A stretch of DNA of 64,000 nucleotides. Origin: Steroidobacter agaridevorans. Its GTDB lineage: Bacteria > Pseudomonadota > Gammaproteobacteria > Steroidobacterales > Steroidobacteraceae. The notes beneath the pieces are model-generated. The model saw nothing but the letters and a program-made list of their open reading frames with translations, was not told where the DNA came from and ran no database searches. Position numbers and translations under genes: made by a program. Shown piece after piece: positions 19,503 to 27,975 of the stretch (within the stretch, counting starts at the first letter, position 1; each line of letters begins with the position of its first letter). The stretch spans positions 454,367-518,366 of the forward strand of contig NZ_BLJO01000004.1 in the NCBI RefSeq assembly GCF_009932555.1, written 5' to 3'.

Positions 19503-19976
19503 TTAGCGGTCATGCGCATGAGGATGCTCATGCGTATGGTCATGACCCGGAACGGCGCAGCGCTCGCAATTCACCCAGCCTGAGTCGCCGTTGACGTAGT
19601 GCTCCTTCTTCCAGATGGGCACGCGGTGTTTCACTTCATCGATGATGTAACGACACGCGGCGAAGGCCTCGGCGCGATGCTTCGAGCTGACGCCGACCCA
19701 GACGGCGACGTCGCCGATCGCGAGTGAGCCGACGCGGTGGACGCAGGCGGCTTTCAATATGCCGAAGCGAGCGATGGCTTCGTTGACGATGCGCTCGCCT
19801 TCCTTGTTCGCCAACGCTTCGAACGCCTCGTATTCCAGGCGAGTGACGGCGTGGCCTTCATTGTGATTGCGCACCCAGCCTTCGAAGGAGGCATAGCCGC
19901 CGGCGGCATCGTCGGCGAGCTCGCGACGGTATGCGTCGAGGGTCAGGGCGGTTGTGCTGAAGGAGAAAGGTTTCAT
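19503..19976 (-). CDS. moaE: Molybdopterin synthase catalytic subunit
   Basis: MoaE takes sulfur from the MoaD C-terminal thiocarboxylate and inserts it into cyclic pyranopterin to make molybdopterin. The 157-residue protein contains FEGWVRNHNEG, EAFEALANKEGERI, HRVGSLAIGD and the catalytic VPIWKKEHY. The C-terminus adds a His-rich tail (GHDHTHEHPHAHDR, 144-157), which could bind a metal. It overlaps the MobA-MoaD fusion gene by 4 nt, so subunits are probably made in a coupled way. Confidence 0.95.
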   Translation of the reverse strand: MKPFSFSTTALTLDAYRRELADDAAGGYASFEGWVRNHNEGHAVTRLEYEAFEALANKEGERIVNEAIARFGILKAACVHRVGSLAIGDVAVWVGVSSKHRAEAFAACRYIIDEVKHRVPIWKKEHYVNGDSGWVNCERCAVPGHDHTHEHPHAHDR

Positions 19977-21166
19977 CCGCCTGCCACCGGGGGTATGAAG
20001 ACGACGGTGTCGCCGTGACGAAGCGGCGTGTTCCAGTCGCTGAAGTCGGAGTTCAACGCGACTTTGAGTTGCGTTGGGTTCAATTGGAAAGGATGACGGT
20101 TGCGGAGCTCCTCGTAGAGCTCGGCTGGAGTTGCTGCGGTCGTGTCCAATGTTTCTTCGCTGCGGCCGGCTTGTTCGCGGAGGATGGCGTAGTACTGGAC
20201 ACGGAGGGTCCGTGGTTTGTCGGCTTTCGCTCCTAACGCAGCGGCAGTATTTTTTTGAACCTCGCCGGCCTGGCCCGGAGAAGAGCGGTGGCTGGTGTTG
20301 CCGCCGGCCTGGTCCGGAGAAGAGCGGTGGCTGGTGTTGCCGCCGGCCTGGTCCGGAGAAGAGCGGTGGCTGGTGTTGCCGCCGGCCTGGTCCGGAGAAG
20401 AGCGGTGGCTGGTGTTGCCGCCGGCCTGGCCCGGAGAAGAGCGGTGGCTGAGGTCGCCGCCGGGCTGGCTTGGAGAAGAGGGGCGGCTGATGTCGCCGCG
20501 GTGCTGGTCCGGAGCAGAGGCGCGGCCAGCGCCGTCCTGGTTCAAAGAGGGCGGGTGGGTGGGCAAAAAAGAAGCCCCGCCGAAAGCGGCCACCGTCGAC
20601 CGATACTCATCAGCAGTGTTCACATTATCCAACGCTCGCACATCCGGCAGATCGAGCAGCAACGTATCCGCGTTGATCAGGAATTTGCGCGGGCACTGCT
20701 TGCCAGCGGCAACGTAAGCGAGCACAGGCTCGCGAGCCGCAGGTTCCCAAATCGCGCACAAAGGTTCGGGCAAGCCATCGTGACTGCTCTTGAACGCGGT
20801 CGCGAGCCGGCGTGGATCACGATGCTCGATCAAATATCGCAGCGTCTGCTCGTTCAAAAACGGCAGGTCGCACGCGACAACGAGCCACGCCGCTTTCGGA
20901 TGTGCATGCAGCGCAGCCGAGATGCCCGCAACAGGCCCAATCCCAGGCTGAAGATCCACAATCTGCGGCAAGCCCGCCCGAGTCGGCTCCTCCCGCTGAT
21001 CCGGCCTCACAGAAACGAACGTCGCCGCGCACACCTGCGACAGCAACTGAAACGTCCAATGCAGCTGCGACTGACCGTGATACTCGATCGCCGCCTTGTC
21101 TCGCTGCATGCGAGTGCTGGCGCCGCCGGCCAGCACCAGGCCGAACAGAGGTGCGTCAGCCGACAT
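19973..21166 (-). CDS. mobA-moaD: MobA-MoaD fusion: molybdenum cofactor guanylyltransferase joined to molybdopterin synthase sulfur carrier
   Basis: A 397-residue fusion. Residues about 6-195 are MobA, which attaches GMP to molybdenum cofactor: [12 protein letters not shown], the Lys in QRDKAAI, and VVACDLPFL. Residues about 200-318 are a Ser/Gly/His/Gln-rich linker built from 13-residue repeats of the [13 protein letters not shown] type. Residues about 320-397 are Moa[15 protein letters not shown], an ubiquitin-like fold, and the free C-terminal PPVAGG needed for thiocarboxylation. An upstream ATG at 21181 would add five residues. No separate moaD is present in the operon, so the C-terminal domain probably does the job. 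Confidence 0.9.
20264..20563. repeat. 39-bp tandem repeat (minisatellite) inside the mobA-moaD linker
   Basis: Unit starts at 20264, 20303, 20342, 20381, 20420, 20459 and 20498 are exactly 39 bp apart, with an eighth degenerate unit from 20531 that is 6 bp short. The first five units are nearly identical; units six to eight diverge. Because 39 is a multiple of three, copies can be gained or lost without a frameshift, and all plus-strand frames also stay open, giving false ORFs. Divergence toward the MobA side suggests recent expansion near the MoaD side. Confidence 0.93.
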
Positions 21167-21623
21167 CGCTCTTGCCTCCACGCTTTTCGACCAGCCGCGT
21201 CTCCGCGATCACGATGTCGTGCGACAGCGCCTTGCACATATCGTAGATGGTGAGCGCAGCCACGCTCGCGCCCGTCAGCGCTTCCATCTCGACGCCGGTC
21301 TTGTGATGAACCGATACCGTACAGCGAACGACGGCATCGTCACCGTCCATCTCAATCGCCACAGTGCACTTCTCGATCCCGAGCGGATGACAGAACGGAA
21401 TCAAATCGTGCGTCCGCTTCGCCGCCATCGTGCCCGCGATGATGGCCGTCTGAAACACAGGCCCCTTCGGCGTGTTGAACTGCTGCGAACGCAGCGCCTC
21501 AGCGACCTCCGCCGGGAACCGAACGCGGGTTTGCGCCGTCGCCGTGCGCTTGGTCACGACCTTGTCGCTCACATCGACCATGGTCGGTCGCGAGCTCGAG
21601 TCGATATGAGTAAACGTCGCCAT
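21156..21623 (-). CDS. moaC: Cyclic pyranopterin monophosphate synthase
   Basis: Converts the MoaA product into cyclic pyranopterin monophosphate. Family blocks are [43 protein letters not shown] (with the conserved KRT and CHPL elements) and [24 protein letters not shown]. The start at 21623 leaves a 4-nt gap after moaA; an ATG at 21635 would overlap moaA by 8 nt. It overlaps mobA-moaD by 11 nt. Confidence 0.96.
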
Positions 21624-21627
21624 CCCT

Positions 21628-22677
21628 TCAACCACCGATGTAATACATCTCGATCTTGCGCAACGGCTGCTCGCCGTTCTTCAGCGAAGAGCGGATCTCG
21701 CTGTAACGATCGCCGCGCTTCAGCCAGGTGTTCGAGATCAGCTGGCTCAGCTCCGCATCCGACGCGCCCTCGCGCAGGGGCGCGCGCAAATCGACGCCGG
21801 AGCGCGCGAACAAACAAGTATAGAACACGCCTTCCGACGACAGCCGCGCCCGCGTGCAGTCACCGCAGAAGGGATTGGTAATCGAGGAAATGAACCCGAC
21901 CTCGCCGAGCCCATCGTCGAACGCGTACCGCTCAGCAACCTCGCCGCGATAATTTGGATCGACCGGATGCAGCGGCCAGCGCTGCCCGATACGTTCCACC
22001 AGTTCGCGCGAGGAAACGACGCGATCCAGGCTCCAATGATTCCGATTGCCCACATCCATGTATTCGATGAAGCGCACGATCACGCCAGTGCCACGGAAGC
22101 GCTCGATCAGATCGATCGCAGTGTGATCGTTCAAGCCGCGCTCGATGACCGAGTTGATCTTGATCGGCGCGAGCCCCGCTTCCTGCGCGGCGCGAATGCC
22201 GTCGAGCACGCGGTCCAGATCGCCCATGCCGCCGCTCATCTGTTTGAAGATGGCCGGATCCAGCGTATCGAGGCTGACCGTGATGCGATTCAGGCCATTG
22301 GCCTTCAACTCGACGGCATGCTGAGCGAGCAGCACGCCGTTGGTCGTCAACGCAACGTCCTGCACGCCCTCGATGGCGGTGAGATCGCCGATCAAATCGG
22401 CGAGATTCGAGCGCAGCAGCGGCTCGCCGCCCGTGAGGCGCACTTTCTTCACGCCGATGTCGACGAACAAGCGGGTCAGCCGCGCGATCTCTTCGAACGA
22501 CAGCCGCTCGTTCGACTTCAGGAAACGATAGTTCTCATGAAACGTTTCCTTCGGCATGCAGTACGGGCAGCGGAAGTTGCAGCGGTCCATCACCGAGATC
22601 CGCAGGTCGTGCAGCGGCCGGCCCAGCGTATCGTGCGGGCGGAGCTTCACGGGCAGTTCGGCAACGGTGGATGGCAT
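21628..22677 (-). CDS. moaA: GTP 3',8-cyclase, radical SAM enzyme
   Basis: First step of molybdenum cofactor synthesis from GTP. The 349-residue protein has the radical SAM cluster motif CNFRCPYC near residues 32-39, the SAM-binding [10 protein letters not shown], the C-terminal second cluster ligands in [13 protein letters not shown] and YTCLF, and the C-terminal MYYIGG with its functional Gly-Gly. ATG 22677 is chosen because the upstream part of the frame overlaps moeA and is unlike MoaA. There are 5 nt between moeA and moaA. Confidence 0.97.
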
Positions 22678-22682
22678 GCAAG

Positions 22683-23894
22683 CTACCAGCGATAAAGAGG
22701 CAACGAAGCGTCTTCCATAACGACCCGTGGGCCGGGCGGCAGTTCCACGAAGCCTACGGTGCCGATCAATGAGGTGAAATCGCCGGAACCGCGTGTCGGG
22801 TGCGGCAAGGCGCATTGCCCCGCGACCGATTGTGTGAGCGTCACAGGCAAAAACACCGCGAGCGGCGGTTTGACTTCGTAGCTTTGGGCAAGCGAAATGG
22901 TTTCAACAGTCCTGGCCGTGGCGCCTTGCGCCGCCTGCAGCCCCGGCAGGACATAGCGCGTCAGACAAACCAGCGTCGAGACGGGATTGCCAGGCAACGC
23001 GTACACGGTTTGTCCGCCGCTGCCTACGCCGAACCAGAGCGGTTTGCCCGGGCGCTGCGCGACCTTGTGGAAGATCATGCGCACGCCGAGCTCCTCCAGG
23101 ACCTGCGGAACATAGTCGAAGCGGCCCATCGAGACGCCGCCGCTCAGGATCATCACATCGTTGGCTGCGAGATGAGATCGCAGGCGCTCGCGGAGTTTGG
23201 GCAGATCGTCCGGCACATGATCGTGCGAGAGCGTGGAATATCCGTGCTGTCGCAACGAGGCGAGCACGGCATAAACGTTGGAGCGCGAGATCTGCCAATC
23301 CTGCAGCGGTTGGCCGGGCTCGACCAGTTCGTCGCCCGTGGAGATCACGACGATGCGCGGCGGCCTTGCGACCGACGCATGCGTTTGCCCGTTCGAGGCG
23401 ATCACTGCAACTTCGGCGGGGCCGAGCCGGCAGCCCGACGGTAATAACAAATCGCCGCGACGGGAGTCGATGCCGCGAGCATGCACGTTGACGTTGCGCA
23501 CGGGAGCAGGGGCGTCGTCGCGGAGTTGAGCGATGCCGTCGCTCACGTCGATGTTCTCGACCGGCACGACACAATCGCAGCCGATCGGGAGCATCGCGCC
23601 CGTCATCACTTCGATGCAGTCAGTGCGGTCGGGCAGGGTCAGCGGCGCCGCGCCCGCGGCCTGGGTCCCCGCGATCCGGAAGCTATTCCGGCCGCCCTGC
23701 CAGCTTTCGAACGAGAACGCGATGCCATCCATCGTGACCCGGTCGAACGGCGGCTGATCGCGGGTCGAAGTGATGGACTCGCGCAGCACCGCGCCCGACA
23801 ACGCGGCCAGGGGCAAATGAACGGCCGGCAGCTGCGTCGCCTGCTGACGGATCGCGGCTTCGGCTTCGGCGGGTGAAAGGAGGCGGCTGGACAC
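22683..23894 (-). CDS. moeA: Molybdopterin molybdenumtransferase
   Basis: Inserts molybdate into adenylated molybdopterin. The 403-residue protein has an N-terminal RDQPPFDRVTMDGIAF block, MTGAMLPIGCDCVVPVE, VISTGDELVEPG, SGGVSMGRFDYV and YALPGNPVSTLVCL, in the usual order. Start codon is GTG. It leads the operon moeA-moaA-moaC-mobA/moaD-moaE, whose promoter should lie in the 347-nt gap upstream. Confidence 0.95.
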   Translation of the reverse strand: MSSRLLSPAEAEAAIRQQATQLPAVHLPLAALSGAVLRESITSTRDQPPFDRVTMDGIAFSFESWQGGRNSFRIAGTQAAGAAPLTLPDRTDCIEVMTGAMLPIGCDCVVPVENIDVSDGIAQLRDDAPAPVRNVNVHARGIDSRRGDLLLPSGCRLGPAEVAVIASNGQTHASVARPPRIVVISTGDELVEPGQPLQDWQISRSNVYAVLASLRQHGYSTLSHDHVPDDLPKLRERLRSHLAANDVMILSGGVSMGRFDYVPQVLEELGVRMIFHKVAQRPGKPLWFGVGSGGQTVYALPGNPVSTLVCLTRYVLPGLQAAQGATARTVETISLAQSYEVKPPLAVFLPVTLTQSVAGQCALPHPTRGSGDFTSLIGTVGFVELPPGPRVVMEDASLPLYRW

Positions 23895-24241: not shown

Positions 24242-24592
24242 TTACCCGCGAGCCTTGAACACACGCACCTGCTCGTTGAACAGCTTGGCCTTGGTCTGCA
24301 GTTCGTCGATGGCGGCGTTGTGCTTCTTGGTCTGCATGGTCTTCAGCTGCATCAGCTGCGCCGTGCCGGCGGCCTTGCTCTTGGTCTCCTCTTCGAGGCA
24401 GGCGCCGAACGCGTTCACTTCCTCGTTGTAGGACTTGAAGGCCTGCATGGCGGCGACCATTTCCGCTTCAGAAGCGGTCTTGCCGTCGGGGATGGAGGCC
24501 GGGGGCTTCGGGAAGGCGCATTCGGCCTGGGCGGTAGCCACGCCAAAGGCGAGGGCGAGGGCAGCGCCGATGGTGAGCAACTTGCGATTCAT
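24242..24592 (-). CDS. Small secreted protein of a tandem paralogous pair
   Basis: A 116-residue protein with a clear signal peptide (1-23, ALALAFGVATAQA). The mature part starts ECAFPKPPASIPDGKTASE, then is helical, with a second Cys in GACLEEE and an ending NEQVRVFKARG. The two cysteines match those of the neighbour at 24825-25196, and could form a disulfide. I do not recognise the family. It lies downstream of its paralogue on the same strand, separated by 232 nt. Confidence 0.75.
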   Translation of the reverse strand: MNRKLLTIGAALALAFGVATAQAECAFPKPPASIPDGKTASEAEMVAAMQAFKSYNEEVNAFGACLEEETKSKAAGTAQLMQLKTMQTKKHNAAIDELQTKAKLFNEQVRVFKARG

Positions 24593-24824: not shown

Positions 24825-25196
24825 TCAGCTCTTCTTTTCGCGGGCCTTGAACACTTTCACCTGCTCGTTGAAGCGGGCGGCGGTGGACTCCAGTTCCTCG
24901 ACCGCGGCGTTGTGACGCTTGGTGTGGATGGCCTTGATCTGCTCGACCTGGTCGGCCGGCGCCTCGGGGCCGGCGGCCTCGATGCGGGTGTTCATTTCGG
25001 TTTCCAGGCAGTTCAAATAGGTCGTGACCGCGCTGTTGTATTCCTTGATGGCCTTCATCCCGCCGACCATTTCGTCCTGGGTTGCGGTGGCGCCGTCCGG
25101 CAGGCCGCTCGGGGACTTGGGATAAGAGCACTCTGCGCTTGCGGTGGCGGCCGCGAGGCTGGTCAGCAGCGTGACGCCAATAATGGTTTTGATCAT
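24825..25196 (-). CDS. Small secreted protein, paralogue of the 24242-24592 product
   Basis: A 123-residue protein with a signal peptide (1-21) and a mature start ECSYPKSPSGLPDGATAT. A second Cys is in LNCLETEM and the C-terminus is NEQVKVFKAREKKS. Shared positions with the neighbour include the E-C-x-[FY]-P-K start, the PDG turn, K-x-Y-N, CLE, KxHNAA and FNEQVxVFKAR. The frame upstream of ATG 25196 is not protein-like. Sequence divergence outside these blocks shows an old duplication. Function unknown; periplasmic location is likely. Confidence 0.78.
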   Translation of the reverse strand: MIKTIIGVTLLTSLAAATASAECSYPKSPSGLPDGATATQDEMVGGMKAIKEYNSAVTTYLNCLETEMNTRIEAAGPEAPADQVEQIKAIHTKRHNAAVEELESTAARFNEQVKVFKAREKKS

Positions 25197-25315
25197 GACG
25201 AATCCTCTAGCGGCTTTCCGAATACGCCAGCATCTTAAGGCGCGCCCGCGCCGCTTGGCTATGCTCAAAACGTCGACGGCCGGGCCGGTTGCATGACTCC
25301 TCTATACTGTCGCTC

Positions 25316-26005
25316 ATGATGCTCACTGCCGCCGAGGTGGACGCCGTCCGCCTGAGCCTGTCGATCGCCCTGCGCAGCGTGCTGTTCAGCCTGCCGCTGG
25401 CGATCCTCGTGGCCTGGCTGCTGACCCGGCGGCAGTTGCGCGGCGGGCTGTTGCTCGATGCTTTCGTGCATTTGCCGCTGGTGCTGCCGCCCGTCGTGGT
25501 CGGCTACTTGCTGCTGTTGTTGTTTGGAATGCGCGGGCCCATCGGCGGCTGGCTATATGCGCACTTCGGCATCCAGCTCGTCTTTACCAGCGCCGGCGCG
25601 GCGCTGGCCACGGCGGTCATGAGTTTTCCGTTGATGGTGCGAGCCATTCGGATCTCCCTGGAGGGCGTCGATGCCGGCCTGGAAGATGCGGCTCGCACGC
25701 TCGGGGCCGGGGCGTGGGATCGATTCTTCACGGTGACGCTGCCGCTGATGTTGCCCGGCATTCTCGCCGGTGCGGTCACGGCGTTTTCAGCAGGACTCGG
25801 CGAGTTCGGTGCGGTCATCACGTTCGTTTCAAACATTCCCGGCGAGACGCGCACGCTGCCGTTGGCGCTCTACACCGCGTTGCAGACACCGGGCGGCGAT
25901 GCAGTGGCGGCCCGGCTGGCGGCGGTTTCTTTCTCGCTCGGCCTGATCGGATTGATCGCGGCTGAATTCATCGCGCGCCGTGTGCGCCGGATGCTGGGAA
26001 GGTAG
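25316..26005 (+). CDS. modB: Molybdate ABC transporter permease
   Basis: Inner-membrane permease of the molybdate importer, about 229 residues, with five or six membrane segments. The ABC-interaction loop reads GVDAGLEDAARTLGAGAWDRFFTVTLPLMLPGILAG, and FSAGLGEFGAVITFVSNIPGETRTLPLALY is typical for ModB. ATG at 25316 or 25319; the TTG at 25289 looks too early. It starts 120 nt from the divergent secreted-protein gene and is followed by modC after 8 nt. Confidence 0.94.
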   Translation: MMLTAAEVDAVRLSLSIALRSVLFSLPLAILVAWLLTRRQLRGGLLLDAFVHLPLVLPPVVVGYLLLLLFGMRGPIGGWLYAHFGIQLVFTSAGAALATAVMSFPLMVRAIRISLEGVDAGLEDAARTLGAGAWDRFFTVTLPLMLPGILAGAVTAFSAGLGEFGAVITFVSNIPGETRTLPLALYTALQTPGGDAVAARLAAVSFSLGLIGLIAAEFIARRVRRMLGR

Positions 26006-26013
26006 CGCGCCGC

Positions 26014-27168
26014 ATGTTCAGTATCCGCGCCAAGAAGCGCCGCGATGGCTTCGTGCTCGATGTGGACATCGAAGTTTCGGCGCCCGGCGTGGTTGCGTTG
26101 TTCGGCCGCTCCGGCTGCGGCAAGACCACGCTGGTCAATATCATCGCGGGGCTGCTGCCGGCGGATGAAGCGCACATCGTGATCGACGGCTGGGCGCTCG
26201 ACAAGGATGGCAAATCGCTGCTGGCCGAGCATCGGGGCATTGGCTATGTGTTCCAGGATGCGCGCTTGTTTCCGCACTTGGATGTGATGGGAAATCTGCG
26301 CTACGGCGAGAAGCGGGCGAAGGCGCGCTCCGTTCAAAACAACGAGAACTTGCGGATCAACCCGCGCCGGGATGCTCCGCGCATCACGCTGGATGTAGTT
26401 GCGCCGTTGCTCGGGCTCGAGCCGTTGTTATCGCGTCGGGTTCATCAGCTGTCAGGCGGCGAGCGCCAGCGCGTCGCGTTGGGGCGGGCGCTATTGACCC
26501 GCCCACGTCTGTTGATTCTCGATGAGCCGCTGGCCTCGCTCGATGCCGCTCGCCGCGAGGAAGTGCTGCCGTATCTCGAAAAGCTCCGTGACGAGCTGGC
26601 GATTCCGATGATCTATGTCAGCCATCAGTTCGAAGAAGTGCTGCGGCTCGCGACCCATGTCGTGCTGATGGATAAAGGCAAGGTCCTGTCGCAGGGCTCG
26701 CTGGATGAGCTCAGCTTACATCCGGAGTTGCGCGCCATCGTCGGGCCGGAAGCCGTGGGCGCGGTCGTTCATGGCCTCGTTGAATCGGTCGATGGCGGCA
26801 CCGGCCTTGCGAACATTCGAGTCGGCGCGAACGTCCTGCGAATTCACTTGCGGGAGGCGCGAGCGGGTGCTCACATTCGTGCACAACTGCTCGCGCGCGA
26901 CATCATTCTCGCGACTACTCGACCCGACAATCTCAGCGTTCGAAACATCATGACCGGAACGATCGCGCGGATCGTTCCGGATGATGAGGATACCGAGCTG
27001 GTCTACGTCGACATCGGCGGCGCTTCGATTCTGTCGCGCGTAACGCGGGCCGCGTCGGTGGCGCTCGATCTGCGCGCTGGATTGCAGGTGTGGGCGCTGG
27101 TGAAGTCAGTGTCGATTCGCGGCCATGCGTTCGTCGAAGGGCCGGCCCGGCAGCAGCCGGCGATTTAG
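26014..27168 (+). CDS. modC: Molybdate ABC transporter ATP-binding protein
   Basis: ATPase of the molybdate importer, 384 residues. Walker A is GRSGCGKTT (about 31-39), the signature is LSGGERQRVALGRAL, Walker B is LLILDEPLASLD, and the switch His is in YVSHQFEE. The C-terminal part (about 255-375) is a TOBE/MOP-type domain. An insertion QNNENLRINPRRDAPR follows the Q-loop region. The 3' end overlaps the opposing modA by 63 nt. Confidence 0.95.
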   Translation: MFSIRAKKRRDGFVLDVDIEVSAPGVVALFGRSGCGKTTLVNIIAGLLPADEAHIVIDGWALDKDGKSLLAEHRGIGYVFQDARLFPHLDVMGNLRYGEKRAKARSVQNNENLRINPRRDAPRITLDVVAPLLGLEPLLSRRVHQLSGGERQRVALGRALLTRPRLLILDEPLASLDAARREEVLPYLEKLRDELAIPMIYVSHQFEEVLRLATHVVLMDKGKVLSQGSLDELSLHPELRAIVGPEAVGAVVHGLVESVDGGTGLANIRVGANVLRIHLREARAGAHIRAQLLARDIILATTRPDNLSVRNIMTGTIARIVPDDEDTELVYVDIGGASILSRVTRAASVALDLRAGLQVWALVKSVSIRGHAFVEGPARQQPAI

Positions 27169-27975
27169 TTTGCGGTCGTGCCCGTTGCCGCTGCTCAGAA
27201 CGGTGAAGCCTGCCTTGGTAAAGATGGCGCGCGCTGCGTGGCTGCGCAGGAACTTCAGGAACGACTCAGTCTCGGATGATGCGCTCGTCATTGCGGCGAC
27301 CGGATAAGTAATCGGCGCGTGTGACGACGCGGGAAACAAATCGACGACGCGGACCTGCGGCTCGACGGCAGCGTCCGTCGCATACACGATGCCTAGCGGC
27401 GCTTCGCCGCGGGCGACGTACATCAGCGCGACTCGAACGTTGTCCGCTCGCACGAGGCGCCGTTCGATCGAAGGCCACAGATCAAGGTTGCTGAGCGCGG
27501 TCTTCGCGTACTTGCCGACGGGTACGGAGTCCGGATCCCCGGTAGACAGGCGGCCGTTCGGGCCGAGCGCGGCCAGCAAAGGTGCGCCTTTCTGTAACTT
27601 CAATGTGATCTTGCTGTCCCTCGGCGCGATCAGCACCAGGCGATTGCCGAGCAGGTCGCTGCGGGTGCCGGCCTTGATCAGCTTGCGCTCCTGCAGGTAG
27701 TTCATCCAATCCTGATCGGCGGACAGGAAGGCGTCGGCCTGCGCGCCTGACTCGATCTGCTTGGCCAGCGCGGAGCTCGCGGCGAACGAGAACTTCACCG
27801 GCACGTTGGATTGCTGGGTGTACAACGGCCCGACCTGCTGCAAGACATCGGTCAGCGACGCCGCTGCGAACACGAGCAAGGGTTCGCGCTGCGCTTCGGC
27901 CGCCGTCGCCGTCTGGGTCAGCCACAGGGCCGCGATGACGAAATGCGCAAGGCCGCGCGCCAGGACTTTGATCAT
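27106..27975 (-). CDS. modA: Molybdate-binding periplasmic protein
   Basis: Periplasmic substrate-binding protein of the molybdate importer, 289 residues with a signal peptide of about 25 residues. Recognised by LLVFAAASLTDVLQQV, SFAASSALAKQIESGAQADAF, and DPDSVPVGKYAKTAL. It is encoded against modBC rather than upstream of it. About 29 C-terminal residues after FTKAGFTVLSS are encoded antisense to the 3' end of modC and look like an extension beyond the usual ModA end. Confidence 0.94.
   Translation of the reverse strand: MIKVLARGLAHFVIAALWLTQTATAAEAQREPLLVFAAASLTDVLQQVGPLYTQQSNVPVKFSFAASSALAKQIESGAQADAFLSADQDWMNYLQERKLIKAGTRSDLLGNRLVLIAPRDSKITLKLQKGAPLLAALGPNGRLSTGDPDSVPVGKYAKTALSNLDLWPSIERRLVRADNVRVALMYVARGEAPLGIVYATDAAVEPQVRVVDLFPASSHAPITYPVAAMTSASSETESFLKFLRSHAARAIFTKAGFTVLSSGNGHDRKLNRRLLPGRPFDERMAANRH

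Follow-up and report, generated by a model that had tools for sequence, protein, structure and literature searches.

Are MobA and MoaD, which serve a late and an early step of molybdenum cofactor synthesis, made and used as one protein in Steroidobacter agaridevorans, or are they two genes that have simply run together? In this pathway MoaD is charged by MoeB and in turn supplies MoaE; MoeA later inserts molybdenum, and MobA attaches GMP thereafter. The question is raised by the window, by which we mean the whole stretch of 64,000 nucleotides that was analysed, where ORF translation gives a MobA-type domain, a linker and a MoaD-type domain in a single frame of 397 residues without internal stop. 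The gene (mobA=moaD) lies on the minus strand at 19973..21166, with its ATG at 21166 and its TGA at 19975-19973; an alternative GTG start is found at 21181, 15 bases 5′ of the ATG, and the sequence 5′ of the ATG is GGAGGCAAGAGCG.

Both domains are recognised by Pfam. The MobA-type NTP transferase domain (20678..21142, minus strand, residues 9-163) matches NTP_transf_3 (MobA-like, PF12804) with 116.3 bits (E 1.9e-33, cut-off 27), and the MoaD-type beta-grasp domain (19976..20200, minus strand, residues 323-397) matches the ThiS family (PF02597) with 59.3 bits (E 5.8e-16, cut-off 22.5), covering profile positions 1-76 of 76, up to the last position. The chain ends in IPPVAGG directly followed by the stop, leaving the Gly-Gly free. 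The NCBIfam models for MobA (TIGR02665, 89.6 bits) and MoaD (TIGR01682, 60.3 bits) score under their respective cut-offs of 151.85 and 66.15, which we treated as naming thresholds and not as defining MobA or MoaD; for annotation this is a warning, and such genomes could also be scored as lacking moaD if only a stand-alone gene is looked for. The MobA half is of MobA type, since it reaches only 39.1 bits with the MocA model TIGR03310; it also has LAGGASTRM where a MocA-like paralogue elsewhere in the genome (L005) has LAAGAS, and we take the LAGG nucleotide-binding motif to mark MobA rather than MocA. The eight best Foldseek matches of the fusion model are MobA structures, with target-normalised TM of 0.79-0.82; the top 50 listed are NTP-transferase folds, and the MoaD half was identified from its sequence matches, which include the solved MoaD chains 1vjk, 2q5w and 1fm0. 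In the AlphaFold2 model, pLDDT averaged over 10-residue blocks is 86-98 up to residue 180 and 94-98 for residues 321-390, the C-terminal block being looser at 69.

Selection has evidently acted on both halves. The motifs LAGG..S.RM..DKA, ACDLP, N.N and P-P-V-x-G-G are invariant or nearly so in alignments of 21 and 44 fused proteins, in both of which the C-terminal Gly-Gly is invariant, and the dN/dS against the sister species G002 is 0.037 for MobA and 0.119 for MoaD, indicating strong purifying selection on each. Given the E-values and the recurrence of this domain order in 66 further distinct loci, a chance origin of the domain pairing is excluded.

The two domains are joined by a linker of 120 residues (20219..20578, minus strand, residues 197-316), most of which is a tandem repeat in frame (20263..20519, minus strand) with a 39-bp, 13-residue unit present in 6.6 copies, with 92% matches and no indels. 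Since tandem arrays are prone to misassembly, one could ask whether an assembly or sequencing error has joined two genes here. However, with a 39-bp unit any miscount would keep the frame, and two relatives with assemblies of their own, G002 and the array-free G011, also have both domains fused in one frame. A sequencing or assembly error as the source of the fusion is refuted, since 26 of 37 Steroidobacteraceae genomes are fused, and we regard its probability as negligible. The preliminary description of this DNA had placed a MobA, a repeat linker and a complete MoaD with a free C-terminus in one protein, which the Pfam domains, the in-frame 39-bp repeat, the Gly-Gly directly before the stop and the complete ThiS profile all bear out; one of the objections that it had considered, an error in the linker frame, is ruled out by the same relatives and family genomes.

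With a pLDDT below 50 for nearly all of residues 203-310, the linker is predicted to be disordered. Its dN/dS against G002 is 1.30, a rough value as repeats are hard to align, and it drifts yet stays in frame across the 118-120 codons compared between the window's genome (G000) and G002. On a common scale, on which residues are counted between the equivalents of fusion positions 196 and 317, the median linker length over 67 fused loci is 5 and the range is 1 to 120, with 120 residues in the window, 118 in G002 and 4 in G011, the closest relative. The long linkers of the window and G002 share the ends PTHPPS.NQ and AGEVQK, and the tree places G002 as sister to G000 and G011 (SH-aLRT 92), so that the simplest reading of the sequences would be a single origin of the long linker followed by its loss in G011. 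This long repeat linker is all that is unusual at the window locus, occurring in one sister species too and absent from the closest relative, and it is thus a local expansion, an ornament. Judging from sequence and model it would behave as a freely moving tether, hardly constrained beyond its frame, and since neither its length nor its sequence is conserved, no fixed geometry of MobA relative to MoaD appears to be selected. A dispersed or mobile repeat was also considered and rejected, as at E 0.001 the window's genome contains the linker sequence only once. Matches to it are found in three of the 14 genomes of the genus (the window's own, G002 and G010). Elsewhere in G002, a 46-bp stretch (L201, G002:C5:70908-70953) matches the linker's MoaD-side end at 83% and is adjoined by repeat-like frames; this one weak match seems too little to call the linker mobile.

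The surrounding genes belong to the same pathway. All on the minus strand, their order is moeA-moaA-moaC-mobA=moaD-moaE. The moaE gene (19503..19976; Pfam MoaE 125.9 bits) starts with an ATG that overlaps the fusion stop (ATGA), and moaC (21156..21635; Pfam MoaC 171.3 bits), a separate gene, overlaps the fusion start. They are preceded by moaA (21628..22815; TIGR02666 376.9 bits, above cut-off) and moeA (22683..23894; Pfam MoeA_N and MoCF_biosynth). Further along lie modB-like and modC-like transporter genes on the plus strand (25289-26005 with BPD_transp_1 and 26014-27168 with ABC_tran and TOBE in Pfam) and a gene for a modA-like solute-binding protein on the minus strand (27106..27975; Pfam SBP_bac_11 187.8 bits). 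Between moeA and modB, two small proteins are encoded on the minus strand (24242-24592 and 24825-25268); they are mutually alike by eye, have signal-peptide-like starts and gave no Pfam match.

The absence of a separate moaD from the operon, already claimed in the preliminary description, holds among the operon's genes, and the genome as a whole (8.0 Mb in 26 contigs, 97.32% complete) gives the same picture, as ThiS and NTP_transf_3 profile searches recognised neither a second MoaD of molybdopterin-synthase type nor a second MobA in it. Only three ThiS-family matches occur genome-wide, namely the fusion ORF, a short ThiS (L002) and a 92-residue protein (L003). The short ThiS adjoins thiO-, thiG- and thiE-like genes, read by eye, the thiG-like one following it, and was set aside as thiS-like; the 92-residue protein was rejected as well, its best NCBIfam match being SAMP1, below cut-off, and its neighbour a BNR/sortilin-like gene. 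The latter locus (G000:C7, about 182515-183970) is an observation in its own right: a ubiquitin-like protein resembling SAMP1 and MoaD, with Gly-Gly at its C-terminus, is encoded immediately 5′ of a 392-residue BNR/sortilin-like protein. NTP_transf_3 has 12 places in the genome, the fusion gene and 11 others. L005 has MocA as its best NCBIfam match, below cut-off, and L006 is GlmU-like by eye, so neither was retained as a second mobA; these two, the strongest of the 11, are the ones that were read, the remaining nine scoring much lower, with 51 bits at most.

The partners that a working fusion would need are present. The moaE beside it is the sole MoaE match in the genome, and only one ThiF-family protein exceeds the cut-off; this protein (L081) is MoeB-like and carries a rhodanese domain. 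The PF00384 places, read by eye, are presumably NapA-like, NasA-like, two formate-dehydrogenase-like and NuoG-like, so that enzymes expected to need the MGD cofactor (NapA-, NasA- and formate-dehydrogenase-like) are likely encoded in this genome. One formate dehydrogenase alpha-like gene (L079, G000:C14:22563-24218) has a single in-frame TGA at codon 590 within its long frame, in the context NQARV-U-HGPTV, which resembles that of selenocysteine formate dehydrogenases. At the level of computation, the genome thus combines one frame and intact domains with partners, clients and no recognised substitute.

In regards to the distribution of the fusion, 60 related genomes were drawn upon, 37 of them from the family and 23 from other families of the order. 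Among the 37 Steroidobacteraceae, the 26 with both domains in one frame include three that are partly visible, owing to masked bases in L042 and to contig ends in L044 and L056; eight have separate adjacent genes, one has a moaD without adjoining mobA, one is truncated where its contig stops and one has no match. None of the 12 loci from the other families of the order is fused, seven having the genes adjacent but separate and five having one gene. Searching 217 genomes of the family, of which 202 gave a match, added 12 further loci, 10 fused, one separate and one partial. Samples of the class (369 genomes) and the phylum (398 genomes) contained at least two genomes with both domains in one frame, both of the same family as the window, and at least three fused genomes (the window's own, G901 and G728), respectively; like those for the family, these figures count among the matches listed, and the fractions are no census. 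The fusion is common in the family and not particular to this genome; the preliminary description had anticipated neither this nor the repeated changes of state and the local nature of the repeat linker.

It also occurs beyond the family. Among the best 80 of 588 relatives, 47 loci were fused, 29 separate and four partial; four species of Gluconobacter and a MAG with the label Omnitrophota are among the fused, Dyella and Rhodanobacter among the separate. The closest named relative in this set is Peristeroidobacter agariperforans, with 96% identity, followed by Steroidobacter gossypii, a Steroidobacter MAG and Povalibacter uvarum. The fusion of G728 is about 31% identical to that of the window and its halves exceed the NCBIfam cut-offs (168.6 bits against 151.85 for MobA, 79 against 66.15 for MoaD). 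In this distant Pseudomonadota genome the MobA-MoaD frame is followed by moaE (L191, G728:C16), and the fusion there probably arose independently. In Komagataeibacter xylinus, which is related to the Gluconobacter species with the fusion, the two genes are separate on plasmid pB (L196): moaA, mobA-like and moaD genes that overlap each other, and moaE lie between an FdhF/YdeP-family gene and fdhD. Three other candidates were rejected: in Nonomuraea gerenzanensis one tblastn stretch suggested a fusion but Pfam finds the MobA half alone, and it was not counted; in G743 and G929 the matches span both domains, yet the genes are separate.

How often has the state changed? We tabulated 142 loci, some being the same gene from two collections, and after removal of 15 lacking a domain (several at contig ends, others with one gene alone), of L042 and L044 (skipped for masked bases and a contig end, respectively) and of 17 domain-identical duplicates (pairs such as L014 = L103, L016 = L104 and L017 = L106), 108 distinct loci remained, 67 fused and 41 with separate adjacent genes. 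The joined domain alignments, with the linker left out, gave a tree on which the fused or separate label changes at least eight times, six of these changes being forced by well-supported branches, against about 33 for shuffled labels; a single clade of all fused rows was rejected (p-AU 1.8e-71). A pruned tree of 92 rows, 62 of them fused, from which 16 distant or long-branch rows picked after the first tree was seen had been dropped, still shows six changes and rejects a single fused clade (p-AU 2.1e-5). The window's own clade comprises 13 rows, all fused (SH-aLRT 90). These quick gene trees, some of whose branches are long, do not tell gains from losses and leave room for transfer between species, and on them the fused state appears to have been gained or lost several times.

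We consider it probable that the gene encodes a bifunctional, tethered MobA-MoaD that is made and used as one chain. The MoaD domain would receive sulphur on its free Gly-Gly end from the MoeB-rhodanese protein of the genome, and the charged MoaD would then dock into MoaE and convert cyclic pyranopterin monophosphate to molybdopterin. The MobA domain would later add GMP to Mo-molybdopterin, yielding the MGD cofactor for the nitrate-reductase-like and formate-dehydrogenase-like enzymes of this genome; the order of the steps, with molybdenum insertion by MoeA ahead of GMP addition by MobA, is also that given in a figure legend of PMC13197769. The disordered repeat linker would tether MobA and MoaD in a 1:1 ratio and hold MobA beside molybdopterin synthase. 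In this scheme we infer both enzyme activities, the intact chain in the cell and any benefit of proximity. The eight of 37 family members in which separate genes suffice are a point against such a tethered enzyme, as are the NCBIfam scores of both halves under the naming thresholds, the unconserved linker and the possible internal starts in 37 of the 67 fused loci.

Neutral run-on fusion is a serious rival to the tethered enzyme, and we give it somewhat less than an even chance. Adjacent and overlapping mobA and moaD genes would join upon loss of a stop, and the halves would go on acting as if alone, with no channelling. Since overlapping genes merge easily, such an origin is favoured by their arrangement where they are separate: the mobA stop overlaps the moaD start in 11 of the 12 separate loci read base by base, and in 29 separate loci the MoaD core begins at most about 15 bases after the mobA stop or even before it. 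The repeated changes on the tree with its rejected single clade, and linkers that vary and drift freely, point the same way, as does a survey of archaeal fusions, the part seen of which suggests frameshifts in conserved gene blocks for some other pathway fusions (PMC11237513). Gene adjacency alone could thus be the origin of the fusion. However, the junctions of the operon are not fused alike, as mobA=moaD is found in 82 of the 142 tabulated loci, moaC=mobA in one, and moaA=moaC and moaD=moaE in none. Only moaC=mobA is a fair comparison to mobA=moaD, because MoaD and MoaA need free C-termini. The fused state has also been held through whole clades, which again speaks against neutrality. The one moaC=mobA frame is that of L046 (G025), where it stands in place of mobA and moaD.

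The tethered chain would also be undercut if MoaD were made apart from it, via an internal translation start giving two overlapping products in frame. Some possible start (ATG, GTG or TTG) is kept between the domains in 37 of the 67 fused loci, in 16 of the 67 an ATG, so that a separate MoaD is possible in those 37, and some candidates lie right before MoaD (L028, L044). However, in the other 30 of the 67, the window included, none of these codons lies in the 60 codons ahead of MoaD, or in the whole stretch from MobA where that is shorter. In the window locus one has to go back 109 and 116 codons from the MoaD match to reach the nearest in-frame candidates, both TTGs. The separate genes differ, all 41 having an ATG, GTG or TTG no more than 12 codons from the MoaD core (the search span being up to 25 codons in separate and 60 in fused loci), and a start behind a motif like that of Shine-Dalgarno (SD) was found in 17 of 41 separate against five of 67 fused loci. 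We therefore regard an internally started MoaD as highly improbable.

Cleavage after translation was weighed as well, the fusion then being a precursor whose disordered linker is cut in the cell, with free MobA and MoaD doing the work. The predicted disorder of the linker would suit this, and MoaD-MoaE fusions are known, from the part of PMC8832034 seen, to be cut by JAMM proteases. However, since MoaD is here the C-terminal half, its Gly-Gly is free without any cutting, and linker lengths of 1 to 120 residues make a common cut site unlikely. A cleaved precursor seems unlikely to us on these grounds.

If the tethered enzyme is the right reading, what would the closeness of its halves achieve? 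In Pseudomonas aeruginosa, split-GFP experiments gave signals for MoaD with a set that includes MoaC, MobA, MoaA and MoeA homologues, as far as the part of PMC3568144 seen goes, where the authors allow that such signals may reflect contact rather than direct binding. By analogy, these signals would favour closeness of MobA and MoaD, and they lend indirect support to the possible local assembly of the fusion with MoaE and MoeA that the preliminary description had suggested. A further step, doubtful but worth stating, would make MobA a physical part of molybdopterin synthase, with two fusion chains around a MoaE dimer and molybdopterin passing from MoaE to MoeA to the tethered MobA without leaving. 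If that were true, the repeated fusion would mean that early and late steps are normally close in the cell, as the split-GFP data likewise hint. In any case, the fusion is a natural construct for asking whether the labile molybdopterin passes from the synthase to the late enzymes within a complex, and what makes it interesting is not the repeat linker but the recurrent union of an early with a late step.

Fusions of cofactor-synthesis genes are already known as a kind, and the MobA-MoaD pairing is new among those we found. No description of it turned up in the literature searched, which covered few subscription papers; it is not reported in the parts seen of PMC6147048, PMC13197769 and PMC3568144, and the word MobA is absent from the main text of PMC11237513. 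Two NCBIfam models likewise describe MobA joined to another cofactor-synthesis protein. PRK14490 (MobA-MobB) is the best NCBIfam match of our MobA half (198.8 bits, residues 3-192 on profile positions 177-366 of 374), but the fusion has no MobB half and the whole-model cut-off of 354 bits is unmet; PRK14500 (MoaC-MobA) differs in its MoaC half, which here is a separate overlapping gene, and its cut-off of 606 bits is unmet too. MoaD-MoaE and MoaD-MoeB fusions are known from what was seen of PMC11237513. The former (M. tuberculosis MoaX and D. radiodurans DR2607) also join MoaD to a pathway protein, but there, according to the part of PMC8832034 seen, the C-terminus of MoaD is blocked and the fused protein becomes active only on cleavage, whereas the MobA-MoaD fusion has a free C-terminal Gly-Gly. 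The archaeal and some bacterial MoaD-MoeB and MoaD-MoeBR proteins (PMC11237513, in part) are similarly lineage-specific fusions of MoaD with a pathway protein, but they join it to its activating enzyme and not to the last enzyme. Finally, the MoeA-MobB fusions of gammaproteobacteria (PMC13197769, in part) resemble ours as fusions of late-acting cofactor proteins, but both partners are late, whereas here one is early and one late. The pathway fusions found in print, so far as these sources were seen, thus join neighbouring steps or two late steps, whereas MobA-MoaD unites the last enzyme with the sulphur carrier that serves molybdopterin formation and keeps the free end that the chemistry needs.
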